Below are positions 7,615-44,765 of a stretch of 44,765 nt of DNA, piece by piece. Position numbers and translations under genes: made by a program. The notes under the pieces were generated by a model, which was not told the origin of the DNA, did no database searches, and worked only from the letters and a program-made list of their open reading frames with translations. The stretch comes from a virus, in the IMG/VR virus record IMGVR_UViG_3300037502_001568, positions 1-44,765 of that record, one strand, 5' to 3'. Positions within the stretch are counted from its first letter, which is position 1. Every line of letters begins with the position of its first letter.

Positions 7615-8154
7615 CTAGATACCGAGAAACTTAAATAGCTTTTCATTTTGTTCAGCAATGACTTTTTCGTCATGATTATCTGAATGGTAGATAAAAGTTG
7701 GGATTTTGCTCAAGCCAATAACAGACGAATACTTATCATAAACATCTCGAACATCCTCAATCTTTATAAACCAATCACCACGTTGTCTCAAACGACGTTC
7801 GATAGTATGAGGCGAAGCTACTACATAAACCATTTTCCAACCGTCTTGATATAGCCTATGGTCATACCACCAAGAGCTTGGATTTTCACCCCCTGAGAAT
7901 AATGGAAGATAAACCAAGTCAGAAATATGGAAACGGTCAAAGATGATATGATTTTTAAGCGTCCTGGATAACTTTAAGCCTTGCTCGTGGACCTTGTTCA
8001 TGTAAGCTATTTTCTCCTGAAGAGAAAGTTCCCGGGGAGGAGCGGTCCAATGAGCAAAGAAAGTGTTGCCATCGAACCGCTCTTCAATAAGCTTACACAA
8101 GGTTGACTTGCCAGCACCATCCATTCCTTCGACGAGTATCTTGTGTTGGGTCAT
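7615..8154 (-). CDS. tmk: Deoxynucleoside monophosphate kinase (thymidylate-kinase-like)
   Basis: 179 aa P-loop kinase. Walker A is EGMDGAGKSTL (residues 9-19), and IIFDRFHISDLVY matches the DR(Y/F/H) substrate motif of thymidylate kinases. A lid-like Arg-rich stretch ERRLRQRGDW follows. It phosphorylates a dNMP to a dNDP. Given the predicted dCMP-type ThyA homologue at 37179, a modified dCMP is a possible substrate, as with the T4 dNMP kinase; that is inference. It starts one base after the stop of the upstream gene. Confidence 0.85.
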   Translation of the reverse strand: MTQHKILVEGMDGAGKSTLCKLIEERFDGNTFFAHWTAPPRELSLQEKIAYMNKVHEQGLKLSRTLKNHIIFDRFHISDLVYLPLFSGGENPSSWWYDHRLYQDGWKMVYVVASPHTIERRLRQRGDWFIKIEDVRDVYDKYSSVIGLSKIPTFIYHSDNHDEKVIAEQNEKLFKFLGI

Positions 8155-9215: not shown

Positions 9216-11693
9216 TTATAGTCCGCACTTTAACTGAGCTCCACAGTTAGAGCACTCGTGACAACCACCTCTGTCAATAACTTTACCCTCACGGCAAAGC
9301 GGACAAGTATTGCCAATTTCGTTTCCATAATTCACACCAGTTTTTTCAAGTGGCTTGACGGTGTTTTCCATTACAACTTTTTTCTTCCTCGGTTGCTCAT
9401 CTTCAAAATCATTTTCTCTGTCCGATAATGAAAGGACTTGAGCATCGCGACTTCCGTCCACATAAACGGTACCGCCTTTCGCCCCACCTTGGTGGAGTCT
9501 CTCATACACAGACTGCACTTGTTCCACAGAATAGCCACGTGGAGCATTAACTGTCTTCGATATGCTGGAGTCAACCCATCTTTGGATAATACACTGCACA
9601 TCCGCATGAGCTTCTGGGCTAAGCTCCATTGCTGACACGAAGAATGGTGGAAGATTTTCGGCATCTGCATCAGGGTTGGCATTCAAATATTCCTGAACAA
9701 TTGGAGCGTTCACCTCGATGAACTTACCAAGCCGACCAGACCGGAAATATTTGAAAGCAAAGTAAGGCTCAAGTCCAGTTGCACATCCAATCATCGTCCC
9801 AGTGCTTCCGGTTGGAGCAACGGTCAGCAAGTGAGAATTTCGTATTCCATTAGCAAGAATTCCTTCTCGGATGTGTTCCGGCATTTTTTGCATATACCCA
9901 GACTGAACAAATTTCTCACGATTGCCTTCTAAGAATGGGAACTCACCTTTTTCAGCAGCCAAGTCAATAGATGTTTCATAAGCTGTTACTGCGATTGCTT
10001 CAAAAACATCATTGATAATTTGGTTACCTTCTTTTGAACCATATTCAACTTGGCAATAGATCAGCAAGTCTGCGAGTCCCATAACTCCTAGCCCAATCCG
10101 GCGCTCGCCAAGAGCTTGTTGAGTATTTTCTTCCATGAAGTACGGTGTAGCATCAATTACGTTATCACCCATTCGAACACCGACGCGCACAGTGTTCTTT
10201 AAACGCTCCATATCAACTTTTTTAGACTTCTTATCAACCATATTAGCTAAATTGATCGCAAGCAGGTTGCAGACTGAATATGGGGCCAATGGCTGCTCTC
10301 CACATGGATTTGTAGCGACTACTTTCTGACCATACGCTTTCGCATTAGTCATGTTGTTTGCGTTATCGATGAAAAAGATACCAGGCTCAGCTGAGTACGT
10401 GGCACAAATATTGATGAGTTGCCATATATCCTTGGCTTTTACTTTCCGGTATGTTTTCACCGGAAGTGGCCATTCTCTCACATCACCACATTCTTGCCAA
10501 TGTTCATCATAATAAGCTTTCTGTTCTTTGTCATAGTTGTCGATGTCAGGAAATTGAAGTTCATATTCCTCGTCGTTTTCAACAGCAGCCATAAAGTCAT
10601 CTGTCAGACACACTGAAATATTAGCGCCAGTTAAGAAGTCTGGATTATTGACTGAATATATTCCGCCGTCTTTGATAAGCTCTTGCGCATAAGGGTTTCC
10701 AAAGTCTGCAGCTAATTCATACATTGCTTTTTCTTTTTCAGTGAATGGTGTAAACTTCAACTTGTCATTCGCCAAGCGAACAACTTCTGGGTCATTATTC
10801 GTTTCAGCCAGAAAGCGCAATATCTTAGGATTTTGTATCTTAGAGATGACAAACTCAATCACGTCCGGGTGCCAAGAACTTAGCATAATCATTTGTGCGC
10901 CACGTCTTGAACCGCCTTGTTCAACAAGATGAGTCAGTTTTGCTATATCGTCAAGCCAACCAACTGCACCAGAAGACTTCCCATTGACGCCTTTTGCAAG
11001 TGCTCCTTTAGGCCGCAAGGTTGAGCCGTTTGTTCCAACTCCACCACCGCGCGACATAATCTCCATAACTTTCTTTCTATGCTCACCAATGCCCTCTCGT
11101 GAGTCATGTGGGTGAGGCATCACATAACAATTAAAATAGGTAACTTCTTTACCTGAGCCAGCTCCGTATAATACACGCCCAGCCGGGACAATATTTTCAC
11201 TTGCTAACTCGCGGTTAAATTCTTCTTCAGTAACTTCTTTCTTGAATTGGTCCGTCTCAACATCAGCTAAGCCACGAGCAACTCGAGCGGCAATTTGTTC
11301 GTAGTATATTTCCATAGGCTTTTCGAAGTCTCGATATTGTCTTTTAACATGGCCAGCTTCTCCATTATAGCTCTGGTCATCGGCTGGATCAATTTGTGCT
11401 TTGAACTCTTCATCAACCTTGATAATTGCTGTCTCAGCATTGCGGTCAAGTTCAGCAATATAACCAATTCCACGAGCTGGGAACTTAGGGTCTTCTTTAA
11501 CAGTTAGAACAACCAGATCACCTTGTTTCAATGTTTTCTTTTCAATATCCTTAAAGGTGTATCGGTCTAACATTACTAACCTGGAAACGCCGTCTCTTGC
11601 ATTTTTCATATCACTTGTAATTTGTTTCACTTCTGGAAAGTATTCCGCAATGTCCTTATTCAACGACTCAATCAACTCTGTGCTGTACGCCAA
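9216..11693 (-). CDS. nrdJ: Class II (adenosylcobalamin-dependent) ribonucleotide reductase
   Basis: 825 aa. Active-site landmarks are present: FNCYVMPHP, RGGGVGTNGSTLRP, LVEQGGSRRGAQM, the NPCGEQPL radical-cysteine loop and TVAPTGSTGTMIGCATGLEP. The C-terminus has a Cys-rich tail (CPLC, CHECSNCG, KCGL) that serves as redox and zinc-ribbon segment in NrdJ. No NrdB-type radical subunit or activase is encoded nearby, which supports class II. It reduces ribonucleotides for phage DNA synthesis and needs host B12. TTG start at 11693 with AGGAGGGG eight bases upstream. Confidence 0.94.
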   Translation of the reverse strand: MAYSTELIESLNKDIAEYFPEVKQITSDMKNARDGVSRLVMLDRYTFKDIEKKTLKQGDLVVLTVKEDPKFPARGIGYIAELDRNAETAIIKVDEEFKAQIDPADDQSYNGEAGHVKRQYRDFEKPMEIYYEQIAARVARGLADVETDQFKKEVTEEEFNRELASENIVPAGRVLYGAGSGKEVTYFNCYVMPHPHDSREGIGEHRKKVMEIMSRGGGVGTNGSTLRPKGALAKGVNGKSSGAVGWLDDIAKLTHLVEQGGSRRGAQMIMLSSWHPDVIEFVISKIQNPKILRFLAETNNDPEVVRLANDKLKFTPFTEKEKAMYELAADFGNPYAQELIKDGGIYSVNNPDFLTGANISVCLTDDFMAAVENDEEYELQFPDIDNYDKEQKAYYDEHWQECGDVREWPLPVKTYRKVKAKDIWQLINICATYSAEPGIFFIDNANNMTNAKAYGQKVVATNPCGEQPLAPYSVCNLLAINLANMVDKKSKKVDMERLKNTVRVGVRMGDNVIDATPYFMEENTQQALGERRIGLGVMGLADLLIYCQVEYGSKEGNQIINDVFEAIAVTAYETSIDLAAEKGEFPFLEGNREKFVQSGYMQKMPEHIREGILANGIRNSHLLTVAPTGSTGTMIGCATGLEPYFAFKYFRSGRLGKFIEVNAPIVQEYLNANPDADAENLPPFFVSAMELSPEAHADVQCIIQRWVDSSISKTVNAPRGYSVEQVQSVYERLHQGGAKGGTVYVDGSRDAQVLSLSDRENDFEDEQPRKKKVVMENTVKPLEKTGVNYGNEIGNTCPLCREGKVIDRGGCHECSNCGAQLKCGL

Positions 11694-12047: not shown

Positions 12048-12635
12048 TTACTTGCGATATTCCTTGTCTTGCTTCCAACCATATGGGCGAACTTCAACTT
12101 GAACGCCAGCATATTTTGAAGAAGGCCGTTTGTCATAACTTACTTCGGGCTGCTCTCCTTTATAGAAAGCTATGTGGCCTATTCTCCAACCTTCTTTGAG
12201 CCAGATTTTGTAAGGCGATTGGTTATAAATCTCAAGGGTAATATAACCTTCAAATCCTGTGTCAATGAATGGGCCCTCGGAAATACATAGTCCCAACCGA
12301 CTAATATTGCTACGTCCAAAGATAAGGGCGGATAAGTCTTTATGAGTTCCAATCTTCTCCTTAATAACCGCAAGGACAAACCCTCCTGGTTTTAATAAAT
12401 ATGGTCCCTGGAACTCTTTATATTTGATTTCTGTTCCCGGCTCTGTTGGGTCAATCGCTAACTCGTGGACTTTACCATTCGGTTGCACTGTATAATCCAC
12501 CACAGGCTCCAGGAAGATGTTTCCGAGCCTGATGTCATACGTGTTAGGTCCGAGTTGTTCGGGGTTAAATGGCTCAATCACCAAGTTCCCTTTTTTAATT
12601 TCTTCTTTAACTTGCCAATCAACTAATTTACTCAT
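12048..12635 (-). CDS. dcd: dCTP deaminase / dUTPase-family enzyme
   Basis: 195 aa. The family signature GRSNISRLGL is followed by IDTGFEGYITLEIYN, corresponding to GRSSxARLGL and IDPGxxGxxxLE in Dcd, so the catalytic Glu (in TLE) is kept. The N-terminal PNTYDIRLG motif also fits Dcd. It would convert dCTP to dUTP or hydrolyse dUTP. The residues between the two motifs (CISEGPF in place of MVHVTAH in E. coli) differ, so specificity is uncertain. It overlaps the primase stop by ATGA. In a phage that modifies cytosine it could help deplete dCTP; that link is inference. Confidence 0.85.
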   Translation of the reverse strand: MSKLVDWQVKEEIKKGNLVIEPFNPEQLGPNTYDIRLGNIFLEPVVDYTVQPNGKVHELAIDPTEPGTEIKYKEFQGPYLLKPGGFVLAVIKEKIGTHKDLSALIFGRSNISRLGLCISEGPFIDTGFEGYITLEIYNQSPYKIWLKEGWRIGHIAFYKGEQPEVSYDKRPSSKYAGVQVEVRPYGWKQDKEYRK

Positions 12636-16190: not shown

Positions 16191-16523
16191 TTAATCACCC
16201 CTTTCAAAGTCCTCAAGTTCTAAGTCTACATGGCAAGCAACTTGTTGAACTATGATCTGATAGCGAAGCCGATCTGGGCCAGACGCTACTCGACGATGAC
16301 TAATGACAATACCGTCTTTCGCTAGAGTAGCCTTCATTGCGTCCAGGTCCTCCTGTGTGGGATTTTCCGGAAGTTCATAACCTAATTGCTTCAGAACATT
16401 CTCGGACGCCTCATTGAGAGCGTGAGCAATCTTTTCTTGCATCTCAGCTGATACTCTGTTCTCTCTCTCACGCTCCAACATTTCATCCCTTGTTAAACGC
16501 TTCAACGGCTTTTTTGTATTCAA
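16191..16523 (-). CDS. Hypothetical protein of the amidoligase cassette
   Basis: 110 aa. TTG 16523 is preferred as the start because a full AGGAGGTG lies six bases upstream; an ATG at 16547 lacks a site. Its first 41 bases overlap the end of the GGCT gene. The protein has a charged helical N-terminus (TRDEMLERERENR) and a compact C-terminal part (SHRRVASGPDRLRYQIIVQQ). No family is recognised. It is the last gene of the cassette before the SSB promoter. Confidence 0.7.
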   Translation of the reverse strand: MNTKKPLKRLTRDEMLERERENRVSAEMQEKIAHALNEASENVLKQLGYELPENPTQEDLDAMKATLAKDGIVISHRRVASGPDRLRYQIIVQQVACHVDLELEDFERGD

Positions 16524-16908
16524 TCCAATCACCTCCTGGAACAACATTCTCAGCTGTCATGTATTCCTTCATTAGAGGATGTTCTGTGTTGCCAACATAC
16601 ATATAGAAGTCATCAGCCAACTTAGCAAGATGGTATAGAGGCGGATTGCCATGGACACCCTCATATTGATTTAGGACCATCATGACCGCATCTTGATTGC
16701 TTAAGTGGCTTAAAGCATTCCCAACATATTTGAACTCAATAATGGAGCCGTGGACCTCATTGTCACCTCCTTTAATGGCAGGATACCAATCACGGATTGA
16801 ATATAATTCCACGCCTTTTAATAAACCAGGCGAAATGGATGTGGGTTCAAGCTTTAGTTCTTTCATAATAGAATAATCTTGCAAAGTTCCATACACGAAA
16901 AACTTCAT
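16483..16908 (-). CDS. Gamma-glutamylcyclotransferase-like (GGCT/AIG2) protein
   Basis: 141 aa. It has the FVYGTLQ substrate-loop motif at residues 4-10, GGDNEVHGSIIEF, and the catalytic Glu83 in LNQYEGV, followed by the usual Pro-Tyr segment. Family members release 5-oxoproline from gamma-glutamyl amines or peptides. Pairing with the amidoligase at 17193 suggests that one enzyme forms and the other trims or releases an amide-linked group. The TAA stop of the preceding gene abuts this ATG, with GAGGAGG upstream. Confidence 0.85.
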   Translation of the reverse strand: MKFFVYGTLQDYSIMKELKLEPTSISPGLLKGVELYSIRDWYPAIKGGDNEVHGSIIEFKYVGNALSHLSNQDAVMMVLNQYEGVHGNPPLYHLAKLADDFYMYVGNTEHPLMKEYMTAENVVPGGDWIEYKKAVEAFNKG

Positions 16909-17192: not shown

Positions 17193-18488
17193 TTACACGA
17201 AGATGACCGCTCCTAAATCCTTGTCAAAATCAATCTTTCTTGAATGAGATAACTTCCATACTCGATTGTTAGCCACTTTGTAAGTAACTCCAAGCTTTTC
17301 TGCAAGTTGCTCTTCCCATTCTTTCTTTGAAGTACAACCTAAGATTTGCATTGAGTCAATAACTTCTGCGATTGCTTCGTTGTTTTCATTGTCTCTAGCA
17401 TCCTTTGGAATTAATTGCTTTTCAATTTTGTCAAGGTCATCATTCTCTTGACGTCTAATTGATACAGGCTTCTCAGCCAACTTCTTTAGAACTTCTAAAG
17501 CATTATCATCAACTTGCTTGATTGTATTCGTGAAGTAAAGGACCATTGTTTTTGCTCTTTCTGCAAGTTCAACTTTTAGGTCATCATTGATTGGTGTTGA
17601 TAATCTATCTTGACCTCTATTGCAAATTGCATTTAGAATTGCTTTTTGTTGGTTCCAAAGTTGGTCATTCCCAGCGGCATTCACAATTCCATACTTGCTA
17701 AATTCAACCGCTTTTAGAAGCATTGCCATGAATAGAACTTGTTGAGCGGCTACTTGACTTGGATTTAGTGTACAATCTGGGAAGCGAAGTTCACAGTGAA
17801 AGCGAGTGATTTCATTTCCTCTAGCTTGCATACCAGCCATTCTCACGAATGGGTAACTTCTGCTTCTAAGTCTATCAATGAATTGCTCAACAGTACGACC
17901 CTCAATTGTTGGTGTTGTGCTCATCATCACATCATGCCTTCTGAAGCCGTCCATTCTAGTGATTGAGTCACCGCTTTTAACAGTTGATGTCAACCATACA
18001 AGCTCACTTGCAAATCGTCTAATAAGTTGCATGAAATTCTTGAAGATGATACCAGGCATTGGAATTTCCATTTCATTAGTGTGACGATTATAAGATAGAA
18101 GCATGTGATTGTGTGTCCCCGCTCGTTGGTGAATGTAAGCGCCATGCTTTTTCATTTCATTAATAACTTTTTCTGCTTGGCTTAAGTTACTCCAGAAGTG
18201 AACCCGGCGACCAACTAGTGGAATTTCAAGACCATGCATCAAGCTTTCGTCGCTAGTGATTGTTTGAACGCCATTATCACCAAAGTTATACATTGAATCT
18301 GAAGGATTAAGTGTTTCAGCCATGTTTTGCGCAATTTCTTGGAGACTTTTGTTGCGGTCAAATTCGCTTTCAAGTTCAACACCAATCTTCAAATTTTTTT
18401 GGATGATTGACTTCCAATATTCAACTTGCTTAGTATCAATCTCTTCACCAGTCTTGTAGAAGCCATTCATCATCAATTCGCGTTTCAT
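17193..18488 (-). CDS. Putative amidoligase (COOH-NH2 ligase, glutamine-synthetase-like fold)
   Basis: 431 aa from ATG 18488 (GGAG nine bases upstream; the first ATG is only three bases away). Landmarks of the phage and bacterial amidoligase family are GVELESEF near residue 35, the His-rich GTHNHMLL strand near 120 and ELRFPDCTLNPSQV near 240. They match the metal/ATP-binding Glu strands and the HxH-type motif of glutamine-synthetase-like ligases. A C-terminal extension of about 100 residues looks helical and HTH-like (TSKKEWEEQLAEKLGVTYKV). The gene has its own promoter and opens a cassette with a GGCT gene. The substrate is unknown. Confidence 0.75.
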   Translation of the reverse strand: MKRELMMNGFYKTGEEIDTKQVEYWKSIIQKNLKIGVELESEFDRNKSLQEIAQNMAETLNPSDSMYNFGDNGVQTITSDESLMHGLEIPLVGRRVHFWSNLSQAEKVINEMKKHGAYIHQRAGTHNHMLLSYNRHTNEMEIPMPGIIFKNFMQLIRRFASELVWLTSTVKSGDSITRMDGFRRHDVMMSTTPTIEGRTVEQFIDRLRSRSYPFVRMAGMQARGNEITRFHCELRFPDCTLNPSQVAAQQVLFMAMLLKAVEFSKYGIVNAAGNDQLWNQQKAILNAICNRGQDRLSTPINDDLKVELAERAKTMVLYFTNTIKQVDDNALEVLKKLAEKPVSIRRQENDDLDKIEKQLIPKDARDNENNEAIAEVIDSMQILGCTSKKEWEEQLAEKLGVTYKVANNRVWKLSHSRKIDFDKDLGAVIFV

Positions 18489-18554
18489 TTTCATTCGCTC
18501 CTTTAAGTTAGAGAATTTATTTTTAGTAAGTCATAGATTAAGTATCTAATATTT

Positions 18555-34762: not shown

Positions 34763-34836
34763 TGGCACCAGGACCAGGATTCGAACCTGGAGAACTAGTT
34801 TTGGAGACTAGTATGTTACCATTACATCACCCTGAT
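34763..34836 (-). tRNA. tRNA-Trp (CCA)
   Basis: 74 nt with encoded CCA. The acceptor ATCAGGG pairs with TCCTGGT (one T-G and one G-T wobble). D stem is ATGT/ACAT. The anticodon stem CTAGT/ACTAG encloses loop CTCCAAA, so the anticodon is CCA. T arm is CCAGG TTCGAAT CCTGG. It is co-transcribed with tRNA-Arg and the head genes. Confidence 0.93.
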
Positions 34837-34842
34837 ATATTT

Positions 34843-34918
34843 TGGCAGACTAGGTAGGACTCGAACCCACAATCCTCAGGGTAGAAACCTGCTGCTCTAT
34901 CCGTTGAGCTACTAGCCT
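34843..34918 (-). tRNA. tRNA-Arg (UCU)
   Basis: 76 nt with encoded CCA. The acceptor AGGCTAG pairs fully with CTAGTCT. D stem is GCTC/GAGC, and the T arm is GTGGG TTCGAGT CCTAC. The anticodon loop TTTCTAC gives UCU, reading AGA/AGG. The anticodon stem has one end mismatch (G-A). It stands seconds from the start of the late transcript and may supply AGA decoding for AT-rich phage genes. Confidence 0.92.
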
Positions 34919-35055
34919 ATATAATAGAACGTCACTTCAGATGGAAAGGGGGAAACATCCTCCGCAACGTCCTTCATATAACAATATGTATAGGCCCCCA
35001 GTAATTTAAGACATTTTGCAAAAATAAATAAAAATAAAAAATTTTTTTCTTAAAA

Positions 35056-35165
35056 CTAGCAAAATCACTGGGGTTAACTACATATCTTTTAATAGATAAA
35101 GATAACTAAAAGATAAATAAAAAATAAAATAAAAATAATCTAAAGGATAAAATAATAGATAAATA
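35056..35165 (+). repeat. Inverted copy of the leader element and 57-bp repeat
   Basis: 35056-35073 is the exact reverse complement of 152-169. The following 90 bases match the reverse complement of 44639-150 with gaps: AATAGATAAAGATAACTAAA aligns with the tandem-repeat unit, and one diverged copy ends near ATAATAGATAAATAA. Only a single unit is present, in contrast to the tandem copies at the ends. It precedes the promoter of the plus-strand cassette just as the other copy precedes the terminase operon. Confidence 0.8.
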
Positions 35166-35195
35166 AAAGAACTTATAAAAATATTAAAAAAGATG

Positions 35196-36488: not shown

Positions 36489-36965
36489 TTGTACCGACCA
36501 GGCATCAGGATGGATAATGTGTACAAAGAATGGGTGGATGAATTGTTTCATGCAAGCAAGCTGGATAGGAACCAGATTTTCCGGCTAGCTCTATTTGTAG
36601 CAGCTCATTCAAATGAGTTTCGTCAGGAGTTAGAGCCTTACATGAAACCAGGCAAAGCATTTCCTGTGAAATGGCAGCTAAGTGAGTCCGACTTATGGCA
36701 AAAACAACAAAGGAGCGAGCTGAATGAACAAACAACAAGAGAAGCCGATTTGGGCCCAGTTAGACGAGTTGGAAAGAGCGAGCGAGCAATACCGCAACCA
36801 GTTCAACGAAATGAGCGACACGGAGAAACTACGCCTCCTGGGACAGTCGAAAGAGCTCCAGCAGCAACTTGGTATGCTCCGGAAACAAGACGAAATACGA
36901 CGACGAATGGCGGAATTGGAAGAGGAGTCAAAATCAATTTCGGTGGAATGGGTACCAATCAATGA
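36489..36965 (+). CDS. Hypothetical protein, C-terminus overlapping the next gene
   Basis: 158 aa from TTG 36489 (AAAGGAG ten bases upstream). Residues 1-75 look like a genuine small helical domain (NVYKEWVDELFHASKLDRNQ, FRLALFVAAHSNEFRQELEP) and could bind DNA. The last 80 codons overlap the next gene in another frame. Their Arg/Pro/Thr/Gly-rich composition suggests a by-product of that gene, so the functional part may be the N-terminal half only, or a frameshift may have extended it. Confidence 0.6.
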   Translation: MYRPGIRMDNVYKEWVDELFHASKLDRNQIFRLALFVAAHSNEFRQELEPYMKPGKAFPVKWQLSESDLWQKQQRSELNEQTTREADLGPVRRVGKSERAIPQPVQRNERHGETTPPGTVERAPAATWYAPETRRNTTTNGGIGRGVKINFGGMGTNQ

Positions 36966-37068
36966 CTATACATTTGTAAGACGCGAGCGCAAAAAGAACG
37001 CTATAGACTTGGTAGACGTCGCATGGCTCTTGGCTTTTGCTGGAATACTCGCCTTTATCGTCTTTTAG
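36724..37068 (+). CDS. Coiled-coil protein with C-terminal membrane anchor
   Basis: 114 aa from ATG 36724, with AAGGAG eight bases upstream. Residues 8-80 form a charged coiled coil (LDELERASEQYRNQFNEMSD, KELQQQLGMLRKQDEIRRRM). A single hydrophobic helix (VDVAWLLAFAGILAFIVF) ends the protein, so it is a tail-anchored membrane protein facing the cytoplasm. Its 5' two-thirds overlap the previous gene. Function unknown. Confidence 0.78.
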   Translation: MNKQQEKPIWAQLDELERASEQYRNQFNEMSDTEKLRLLGQSKELQQQLGMLRKQDEIRRRMAELEEESKSISVEWVPINDYTFVRRERKKNAIDLVDVAWLLAFAGILAFIVF

Positions 37069-37089: not shown

Positions 37090-37118
37090 TTTACAAACCT
37101 TAAATACTTCAGTATATT
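37090..37118 (+). promoter_or_regulatory. Sigma-A-like promoter of the thyA-like / DHFR pair
   Basis: TTTACA (37090-37095, preceded by GGG) is spaced 17 bp from TATATT (37113-37118). It begins in the gap after the membrane-anchored gene and drives the two folate-linked genes. Confidence 0.8.
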
Positions 37119-37178
37119 ATTAGTAGCTGCTTTTTAGTGGCTACTATATTTTTATTATTTGAAAGGGGAAATGCAGAT

Positions 37179-37967
37179 ATGCGTCAATATCATGACTTAG
37201 TACAAGAGGTTTATGAGACAGGCCATGTTGTTAAAAACGATAGAACTGGCACCGGAATGATTGAAAGCTTCGGTCATCAAATGAAGTTTGATTTGTCAAT
37301 GGGGTTTCCATTAGTTAACACTAAGCGAACCTTCTTCCGTGGGGCCATCACAGAGCTCCTGTGGATACTTTCGGGATCAACTAATATTAGAAGTCTCCAA
37401 GAGCAAAAAATCCATATATGGGACGAATGGGCGGACGAGAATGGCGACCTTGGTCCTACTTATGGTTATCAAGTGCGAAATTACAATGGCCAGGGAGTGG
37501 ACCAGCTGAAAAACGTGCTACATGATTTGAAATACAATCCACATTCACGTCGTCACATTATTAATTTGTGGAACCCAGTTCAAATTGACCAGATGAGGTT
37601 GCCACCGTGCCTTGCGATGTATCAATTCAATGTTCGTGGCGATAAACTAAATATGATGGTCACGCAACGTTCAGCAGATTTATTCTTAGGGTTGCCTTTC
37701 GACATTGCAGCTGGAGCTGCTTTCGTTCATTTAGTTGCTCGTCATGTTGGATTACAACCAGGAATACTAACTTATTCAATCGGGTCTGCGCATATTTATT
37801 TGAACCATACGGAGCAAATCGAGCTTCAACTTAGCAGACAACCACGGCCATTGCCAACTTTAATTCTAAATGAGGATAAAATTGACTTGTTCGATTTCAC
37901 TTTTGAAGATTTCAAGCTTGAAAACTATAACCCATACCCAGCTATTAAAGGAGAAGTGAGTGTATAA
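37179..37967 (+). CDS. thyA: Thymidylate-synthase-family methylase, predicted dCMP-specific
   Basis: 262 aa from ATG 37179 (AAAGGGG upstream). It aligns with ThyA without gaps around the active site: R-T-G-T-G, ELLWILSGSTN, LGPTYGYQVRNY, nucleophile C144 in LPPCLAMYQF, RSADLFLGLPFDIA, and H205/Y207 in SAHIYLNH. The residue aligned with Asn177 of E. coli ThyA, 31 positions after the nucleophile, is Asp175 (codon GAC). In this family Asn selects dUMP and Asp selects dCMP, as in T4 dCMP hydroxymethylase and in the L. casei N229D mutant. The His after the catalytic Cys is Leu. Predicted product: 5-methyl-dCMP, or dTMP if the Asp is tolerated. Confidence 0.85.
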   Translation: MRQYHDLVQEVYETGHVVKNDRTGTGMIESFGHQMKFDLSMGFPLVNTKRTFFRGAITELLWILSGSTNIRSLQEQKIHIWDEWADENGDLGPTYGYQVRNYNGQGVDQLKNVLHDLKYNPHSRRHIINLWNPVQIDQMRLPPCLAMYQFNVRGDKLNMMVTQRSADLFLGLPFDIAAGAAFVHLVARHVGLQPGILTYSIGSAHIYLNHTEQIELQLSRQPRPLPTLILNEDKIDLFDFTFEDFKLENYNPYPAIKGEVSV

Positions 37968-38455
37968 TGAAGATTGAAATGATTTTAGCTAGCTCGCAAA
38001 ATGGAATGATTGGCCATGAGGGTAAACTTCCGTGGCCTTTCATCAAAGAAGATATGGCATTCTTTAAAAAGATGACACTCGGAAAACACATTGTAATGGG
38101 CAGAAAAACATATGACAGCTTAGGTGGTCCGCTTCCGGGTAGGGTCCACCACGTATTGACATATGACTTTGACTTCAAAGCTCCGAGCCCCAATGTCATT
38201 GTTCACAGGTCTGTCGAGAGTGTCTTGGTTTACGCACTTAAGAATAATGTCAGTTTGATGATTGCAGGCGGCCTGAAGCTCTATAATCAATTCAAATATC
38301 ATGCTGATACTGTTTACCTCACGATTGTTGAAAAAGATTATGATGGAGACACAGAAGCTCCTGATCTTAGTATCTTTACCCATCGTGAGGAAATTGGTGA
38401 AGCAATGAATATGAGTGAAGATGTCAAACTTACTTTCTATAAATTAGCGCGTTAG
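37967..38455 (+). CDS. dfrA: Dihydrofolate reductase
   Basis: 162 aa. Motifs are ILASSQNGMIGHEGKLPW, EDMAFFKKMT with the catalytic acidic residue, the NADPH-binding MGRKTYDSLG-PLPGR and the C-terminal IAGGLKLYNQF. It regenerates tetrahydrofolate from dihydrofolate, which is produced when a ThyA-type enzyme methylates its substrate. Start and upstream stop overlap as TAATG, so the pair is coupled. The coupling argues that the partner is a methylase rather than a hydroxymethylase, since hydroxymethylation does not oxidise the folate. Confidence 0.95.
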   Translation: MKIEMILASSQNGMIGHEGKLPWPFIKEDMAFFKKMTLGKHIVMGRKTYDSLGGPLPGRVHHVLTYDFDFKAPSPNVIVHRSVESVLVYALKNNVSLMIAGGLKLYNQFKYHADTVYLTIVEKDYDGDTEAPDLSIFTHREEIGEAMNMSEDVKLTFYKLAR

Positions 38456-38464
38456 AACGTTCCG

Positions 38465-38486
38465 GACCCCAGAAGGGGTCTTTTTT
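38465..38486 (+). terminator. Intrinsic terminator after the DHFR gene
   Basis: GACCCC AGAA GGGGTC forms a 6-bp GC stem followed by six T residues, nine bases after the DHFR stop codon. Confidence 0.93.
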
Positions 38487-38494
38487 ATTTGTGT

Positions 38495-38530
38495 AAATAA
38501 AAAGAGGACCCAATCAAGGGTCCTTTTCTT
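38495..38530 (-). terminator. Bidirectional terminator between converging operons
   Basis: GGACCC (38506-38511) and GGGTCC (38518-38523) form a 6-bp stem that is followed by T-rich sequence on both strands: TTTTCTT on the plus strand and TCTTTTTATTT on the minus strand. It ends the terminase-portal-MuF transcript and backs up the DHFR terminator. Confidence 0.85.
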
Positions 38531-44584: not shown

Positions 44585-44765
44585 ATCATCTCACTTCCTA
44601 TAGGTTATCTATATATTATCTAATATAGATATATTTTGTATCTATTATTTCTCATTCGAGATTATCTTATTTTTTAGTTTTGTTTATCTTTTAGTTATCT
44701 ATTATTTCTCATTCGAGATTATCTTATTTTTTAGTTTTGTTTATCTTTTAGTTATCTATTATTTC
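44585..44765. repeat. Terminase operon leader and right-end tandem repeat
   Basis: 44639-44694 (56 bp), 44695-44751 (57 bp) and 44752-44765 (14 bp) repeat the unit found at 1-127. Bases 44585-44638 are an AT-rich segment with several TATA-like words (for example near 44612-44630) just before the first terminase-operon gene. None has a good -35 partner, so a promoter for the phage sigma-like factor could lie here. No gene is present. Confidence 0.85.

Follow-up and report, generated by a model that had tools for sequence, protein, structure and literature searches.

A ThyA-family enzyme with predicted dCMP 5-methylase activity, encoded in an overlapping gene pair with dihydrofolate reductase on a siphophage-like genome

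Complete substitution of cytosine by 5-methylcytosine (5mC) is documented in the Xanthomonas phage XP12 and inferred in its relatives. XP12 DNA, in which 5mC replaces all C, resists about 90% of the type II enzymes tested (PMC7653180). XP12 further encodes a specific, host-independent deaminase that converts 5-methyl-dCTP to dTTP, as summarized in PMC12088426 with reference to Wang & Ehrlich 1982 and Kuo et al. 1982. In our comparisons XP12 is represented by its relatives AXL1 and PaMx28. The AXL1 operon holds together a pyrophosphohydrolase, a thymidylate synthase (TS) family enzyme with Asp at position 177 (D177; E. coli ThyA numbering), a zinc deaminase and a dihydrofolate reductase (DHFR). 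The AXL1 "dCMP deaminase" (locus L038, 11147-11623) is probably a 5-methyl-dCTP deaminase, judged by its operon position and the XP12 literature. Another dCMP-specific member of the TS family, the dCMP hydroxymethylase gp42 of phage T4, has Val in place of Trp83, lacks the C-terminal tail and carries residues Asp145, Val85 and Ser94; its hydroxymethylase signature consists of an Asp three positions before the catalytic Cys and a Ser two positions before the active Tyr (PMC6400193).

The T4 genome also encodes a TS that acts on dUMP, and this gene, td, overlaps the DHFR gene frd. In dUMP-converting enzymes position 177 is Asn, and ThyA can be turned into a dCMP-methylating enzyme by the exchange N177D (Liu & Santi 1992, as cited in PMC8670742); the same source describes the single Asn to Asp mutant N229D of the L. 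casei TS as a dCMP methylase. In an association study, residues 177 and 147 were the top two linked to modified-cytosine phage contigs, most of which have Asp177 (PMC8670742). The His at 147 supports dUMP turnover in the mouse and E. coli enzymes, and mouse TS without it shows lower dUMP turnover and tighter binding of N4-hydroxy-dCMP (PMC7962005).

The stretch of DNA analysed here, called the window, comprises all 44,765 nucleotides of IMG/VR record IMGVR_UViG_3300037502_001568. A second IMG/VR contig, 3300035670_000833, runs from the window end into the window start across a 57-bp terminal repeat, so that the window amounts to a complete genome in circular assembly and gene absences are meaningful. 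The terminase groups it, at 55-60% identity, with vB_BpsS-36, PS1, Jayan, 276BB001 and Eoghan of Bacillus and GBK1 of Geobacillus; the phage is an Andromedavirus-like siphophage whose hosts are probably Bacillaceae. Copies of the AT-rich repeat stand in tandem at both window ends (1-127 and 44639-44765), and a diverged inverted copy (78%) is found at 35053-35191. The features of the TS-DHFR locus are:

37090..37118, plus strand: sigma-70-like promoter candidate, TTTACA-17-TATATT, a consensus match not above chance
37121..37146, plus strand: hairpin of 11 bp with a T-rich tract behind it, terminator- or attenuator-like (z -2.9), in the thyA leader after the promoter candidate and before the start codon
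37179..37967, plus strand: ThyA-family enzyme (P0001), predicted dCMP 5-methylase, 262 amino acids (PF00303, NCBIfam, AlphaFold)
37608..37613, plus strand: catalytic Cys (C146 of E. coli ThyA) and the next residue, Leu (H147L), by alignment
37701..37703, plus strand: GAC codon for the Asp that occupies the dCMP/dUMP-selecting position (N177D), by alignment
37785..37787, plus strand: Ser codon at D205 (D205S), by alignment; likewise Ser in T4 dCMP hydroxymethylase
37967..38455, plus strand: DHFR (P0002), 162 amino acids (Pfam DHFR_1, 135 bits)
38464..38524, no strand assigned: two back-to-back terminator hairpins, seen in the sequence, closing the TS-DHFR cassette and the opposing head-gene operon

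The ThyA-family enzyme scores above the Pfam and NCBIfam cut-offs (349.5 bits for PF00303; NCBIfam thymidylate synthase), and it has the fold, the catalytic Cys and the phosphate- and folate-binding residues of the superfamily. Its AlphaFold model has a pLDDT of 93.5 and superposes best, among PDB entries, on E. coli ThyA (TM 0.97, rmsd 1.2-1.4 Å), which was one of the comparisons proposed in an earlier note on this DNA. Alignment with the E. coli enzyme showed conservation of E58, R126, R127, R166, S167, D169, Y94, H207 and Y209. Because the reading frame is intact, the tested catalytic residues are kept and the family cut-offs are exceeded, the gene is no drifting dead copy. The Asp codon is real and no sequencing error, since contig 3300035670_000833 carries the identical gene, the single mismatch to the window in 16,150 bp lying outside it. 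As described in the note, the two genes overlap as TAATG, the stop codon of the first and the start codon of the second having one base, the A, in common (GTATAATGAAG). The shared promoter proposed in the note comes down to an upstream consensus match; such matches show no excess in the region, with 4 found and 4.1 expected from shuffled sequence. The hairpin and T-rich tract, together 37121-37156, could terminate the upstream transcript (36724-37068) or be an attenuator.

The cassette is flanked by the genes for a minor head protein (38609) and the head protease (33847) and is encoded on the strand opposite to theirs. This looks like a cargo site, because vB_BpsS-36, Eoghan and 276BB001 have different inverted genes in the corresponding position. 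Genes for tRNA-Trp(CCA) and tRNA-Arg(TCT) are located beside it (34763-34918, minus strand).

The window enzyme was aligned with E. coli ThyA, T4 gp42, the XP12 relatives, 80 ThyA genes of cellular origin, and viral relatives collected by pattern and profile scans. The catalytic Cys is residue 144 (motif LPPC, codon 37608-37610), and exactly 31 positions further, as had been noticed before, residue 175 is Asp in the motif LGLPFDIA; these residues align with C146 and N177 of E. coli ThyA. H147L and D205S are two further active-site changes that the note had not mentioned. Among the 135 N177 enzymes in the alignment, His147 is found in all and Asp205 in 133. At positions 147, 177 and 205 the window enzyme has Leu, Asp and Ser, T4 dCMP hydroxymethylase has Thr, Asp and Ser, and AXL1 and PaMx28 have Pro, Asp and His, while most other viral enzymes with the LPFDIA motif retain His147. 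More D177 ThyA genes that adjoin a DHFR gene, with His147 kept, occur at loci L129 and L130 (IMG/VR 2706795394 and 2706795401) and L126. The L. casei N229D enzyme, a laboratory single mutant unlike the natural window enzyme, keeps its native His199, which corresponds to position 147. The window enzyme thus has the Asp177 of the XP12-type methylase and the T4 hydroxymethylase and not the Asn177 and His147 of dUMP-specific TS. Since positions 177, 147 and 205 are all changed, and in view of the published association of 177 and 147 and the effects of losing the His at 147, the base pocket is, as judged from the alignment, rebuilt and contains more than one odd residue. The dCMP preference proposed in the note is therefore supported by three substitutions at sites also changed in known dCMP enzymes, and we consider it likely that the protein is a dCMP 5-methylase, a prediction from sequence. 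In a phylogenetic tree the enzyme formed a long branch adjacent to the N177 clade, and the other D177 lineages fell outside; this placement does not establish a separate gain of N177D. Standard pipelines give such a protein the name thymidylate synthase, and dCMP systems of this kind are hence overlooked.

The best phage homologs of the DHFR are Bacillus phage DHFRs of about 40% identity. The partner is fitting because methylation takes the folate hydride and yields dihydrofolate. As an argument for dCMP over dUMP, the DHFR coupling emphasized in the note fails to discriminate and was rejected: 27 of 55 viral N177 enzymes have a DHFR gene within 1.5 kb (45/80 for genome loci), and in T4 td-frd it is a dUMP enzyme that is so paired. 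Outside the cassette, the following window genes act on the nucleotide pool:

7615..8154, minus strand: thymidylate kinase-like dNMP kinase of a family unlike the related phages' kinase (PF02223, phrog_761)
9216..11693, minus strand: vitamin B12-dependent ribonucleotide reductase, a dCDP source (NF005991, 1384 bits)
12048..12635, minus strand: dCTP deaminase (DCD) family protein (PF22769, 109 bits; TIGR02274 above cut-off; alignments)

The six related phages all have a TS in the replication region: the records of BpsS-36, Eoghan, PS1 and 276BB001 call it ThyX, and those of GBK1 and Jayan give no type. The kinases of BpsS-36, Eoghan, PS1 and GBK1, the four tested, match the T4 gp1-type DNMK family, and some of the six phages carry dCMP deaminase and MazG. 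ThyX, zinc dCMP deaminase (PF00383) and MazG (PF03819) are absent from the whole window genome, in a search that covered these families. A clear dCTP pyrophosphatase was likewise not found in it, so that dCTP removal would rest on the DCD-family enzyme or the host. The DCD-family enzyme itself has no counterpart in the fetched sequence of the six related phages, and an IMG/VR search for relatives of the DHFR and DCD proteins returned nothing beyond the second copy of this phage. The DCD protein contains Ser, Arg and Glu at the positions that we take to be catalytic in E. coli DCD, and its base-contact loop is divergent. A one-residue deletion in this loop was considered as a marker for 5-methyl-dCTP use and rejected: halovirus HF2 has a DCD beside ThyX with a loop of the same length, and loop length is for that reason not diagnostic. 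Besides removal of dCTP, the role given to this enzyme in the note, it may by analogy with XP12 do more: since XP12 encodes a 5-methyl-dCTP deaminase making dTTP, the window enzyme could convert 5-methyl-dCTP to dTTP and stand in for ThyX.

Taken as a whole, we regard it as probable that the cassette provides a dCMP 5-methylase with a cofactor-recycling DHFR and that 5-methyl-dC enters the phage DNA. In the proposed mechanism Asp177 would bind cytosine and protonate it at N3/N4, and Leu147 and Ser205 would substitute for the His/Asp pair conserved near the C4 group in dUMP enzymes. Methylene-tetrahydrofolate would give the carbon and hydride transfer would produce 5-methyl-dCMP and dihydrofolate, which the DHFR would turn back into tetrahydrofolate. 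Kinases would convert 5-methyl-dCMP to 5-methyl-dCTP, probably the phage thymidylate kinase-like protein followed by host NDP kinase. The 5-methyl-dCTP would take the place of dCTP in phage DNA and block host restriction, and the DCD-family enzyme would remove dCTP and/or deaminate 5-methyl-dCTP to dTTP. If it takes the latter roles, the absence of ThyX and dCMP deaminase would be explained. The wider proposal that one D177 enzyme feeds both pyrimidines, with 5-methyl-dCTP used instead of dCTP in DNA and a non-zinc DCD making dTTP from 5-methyl-dCTP in replacement of ThyX and dCMP deaminase, appears doubtful to us; if it is true, a protein architecture that is not known to deaminate 5-methyl-dCTP would do so in a Bacillus-type siphophage.

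The same gene set can be read as plain dTMP synthesis, in which dUMP is still methylated, Asp177 is a tolerated oddity, and DCD, ThyA, DHFR and the thymidylate kinase replaced ThyX and dCMP deaminase through the route dCTP to dUTP/dUMP, dTMP and dTTP. These four proteins do form the textbook dTTP pathway, a ThyX such as related phages carry is missing, N177 enzymes too are often paired with DHFR, and the proximity of DCD and ThyX in viruses such as HF2 shows that a DCD can take part in ordinary dTTP synthesis. However, three residues are replaced here, N177, the H147 that is invariant in the N177 enzymes and the near-invariant D205, all at sites where dCMP enzymes differ as well, and N177D makes ThyA a dCMP methylase in the work cited by PMC8670742; we therefore hold this reading to be improbable. 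Decidedly improbable, in our view, is that 5-methyl-dCMP serves mainly as a dTTP route via 5-methyl-dCTP and DCD, with little or no 5-methyl-dC left in DNA. XP12 runs such a branch with a zinc deaminase, according to the account in PMC12088426, and the window lacks both ThyX and the zinc dCMP deaminase, but XP12 also retains 5mC in its DNA, and an indirect dTTP supply alone offers no obvious advantage over ThyX.

The active site gives the best evidence on methylation versus hydroxymethylation. A dCMP hydroxymethylase forming 5-hydroxymethyl-dCMP as in T4, with the DHFR incidental, would agree with the three specificity sites, which are as in T4 gp42, Ser205 included. Yet the hydroxymethylase signature (Asp/Glu at Cys-3, Ser/Thr at Tyr-2, absent tail) is not found: the window enzyme resembles E. 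coli ThyA in having Leu at Cys-3, Pro at Tyr-2, Trp83 and a full tail, and Leu143, Trp80, Trp83 and the C-terminal tail, by which hydride transfer is supported, are intact. Moreover, among those proteins of the genome that were scanned, none was recognized as of glucosyl-, carbamoyl- or TET-type, and we consider hydroxymethylation very unlikely. The note had preferred methylation on account of the DHFR; the preference stands, although the active site, with hydrophobic Leu143, Trp80 and the tail and without an acidic residue at Cys-3, is the better argument. The XP12-type group is not uniform at this methylation site, since AXL1 has Asn143 and its tail could not be aligned.

Similar to the window, AXL1 and PaMx28 of the XP12 group (AXL1, DLP4, PaMx28) have a TS with D177 and a residue other than His at 147 near a DHFR. 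Unlike the window enzyme, theirs belongs to another TS lineage (28% identity for AXL1), and a zinc-type deaminase and a PRA-PH/MazG-like pyrophosphohydrolase are encoded near the TS, whereas the window has neither and carries a DCD elsewhere; the viruses are different and their host groups probably so. Because the zinc deaminase and the MazG-type pyrophosphohydrolase are absent, the window pathway is outside the XP12 gene set in the strict sense, but most likely works like that system. If the prediction of 5mC is true, this would be a second, unrelated group of 5mC viruses with a differently built pathway, and 5mC substitution would have arisen or spread more than once. The cassette would then be a compact pair of dCMP methylase and DHFR for producing 5-methyl-dCTP precursors, and the enzyme is a test case for whether residue 147 acts with 177 in specificity. 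Elsewhere in the genome, a GGACT (gamma-glutamyl cyclotransferase-like) protein (16483-16908) adjoins a protein of 433 amino acids (17193-18494) that is without Pfam or PHROGs match, both on the minus strand.

Avoidance of restriction sites was compared as the dispersion of C-containing 6-mer palindromes, which is 1.10 in the window, 0.91 in T4 and 0.87-1.58 in the XP12 relatives. In eight Bacillus/Geobacillus-type phages (the six related ones and two of Geobacillus type) it is 1.99-4.98, that is, these palindromes are depleted. Between 20 D177 and 20 N177 IMG/VR contigs, median observed/expected ratios (O/E) were 0.88 and 0.85 (p=0.02) and median dispersions 0.98 and 1.13 (p=0.30). Palindrome avoidance fails as a general proxy for modified cytosine, the N177 IMG/VR contigs also being without depletion; its support is weak, the signal being host-dependent and non-depletion common outside Bacillus phages. 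Among 4-mer palindromes only GATC is strongly avoided in the window (O/E 0.22) and most other C-containing ones are near expectation; the 4-mer profile of T4 is nearly identical (GATC 0.28).
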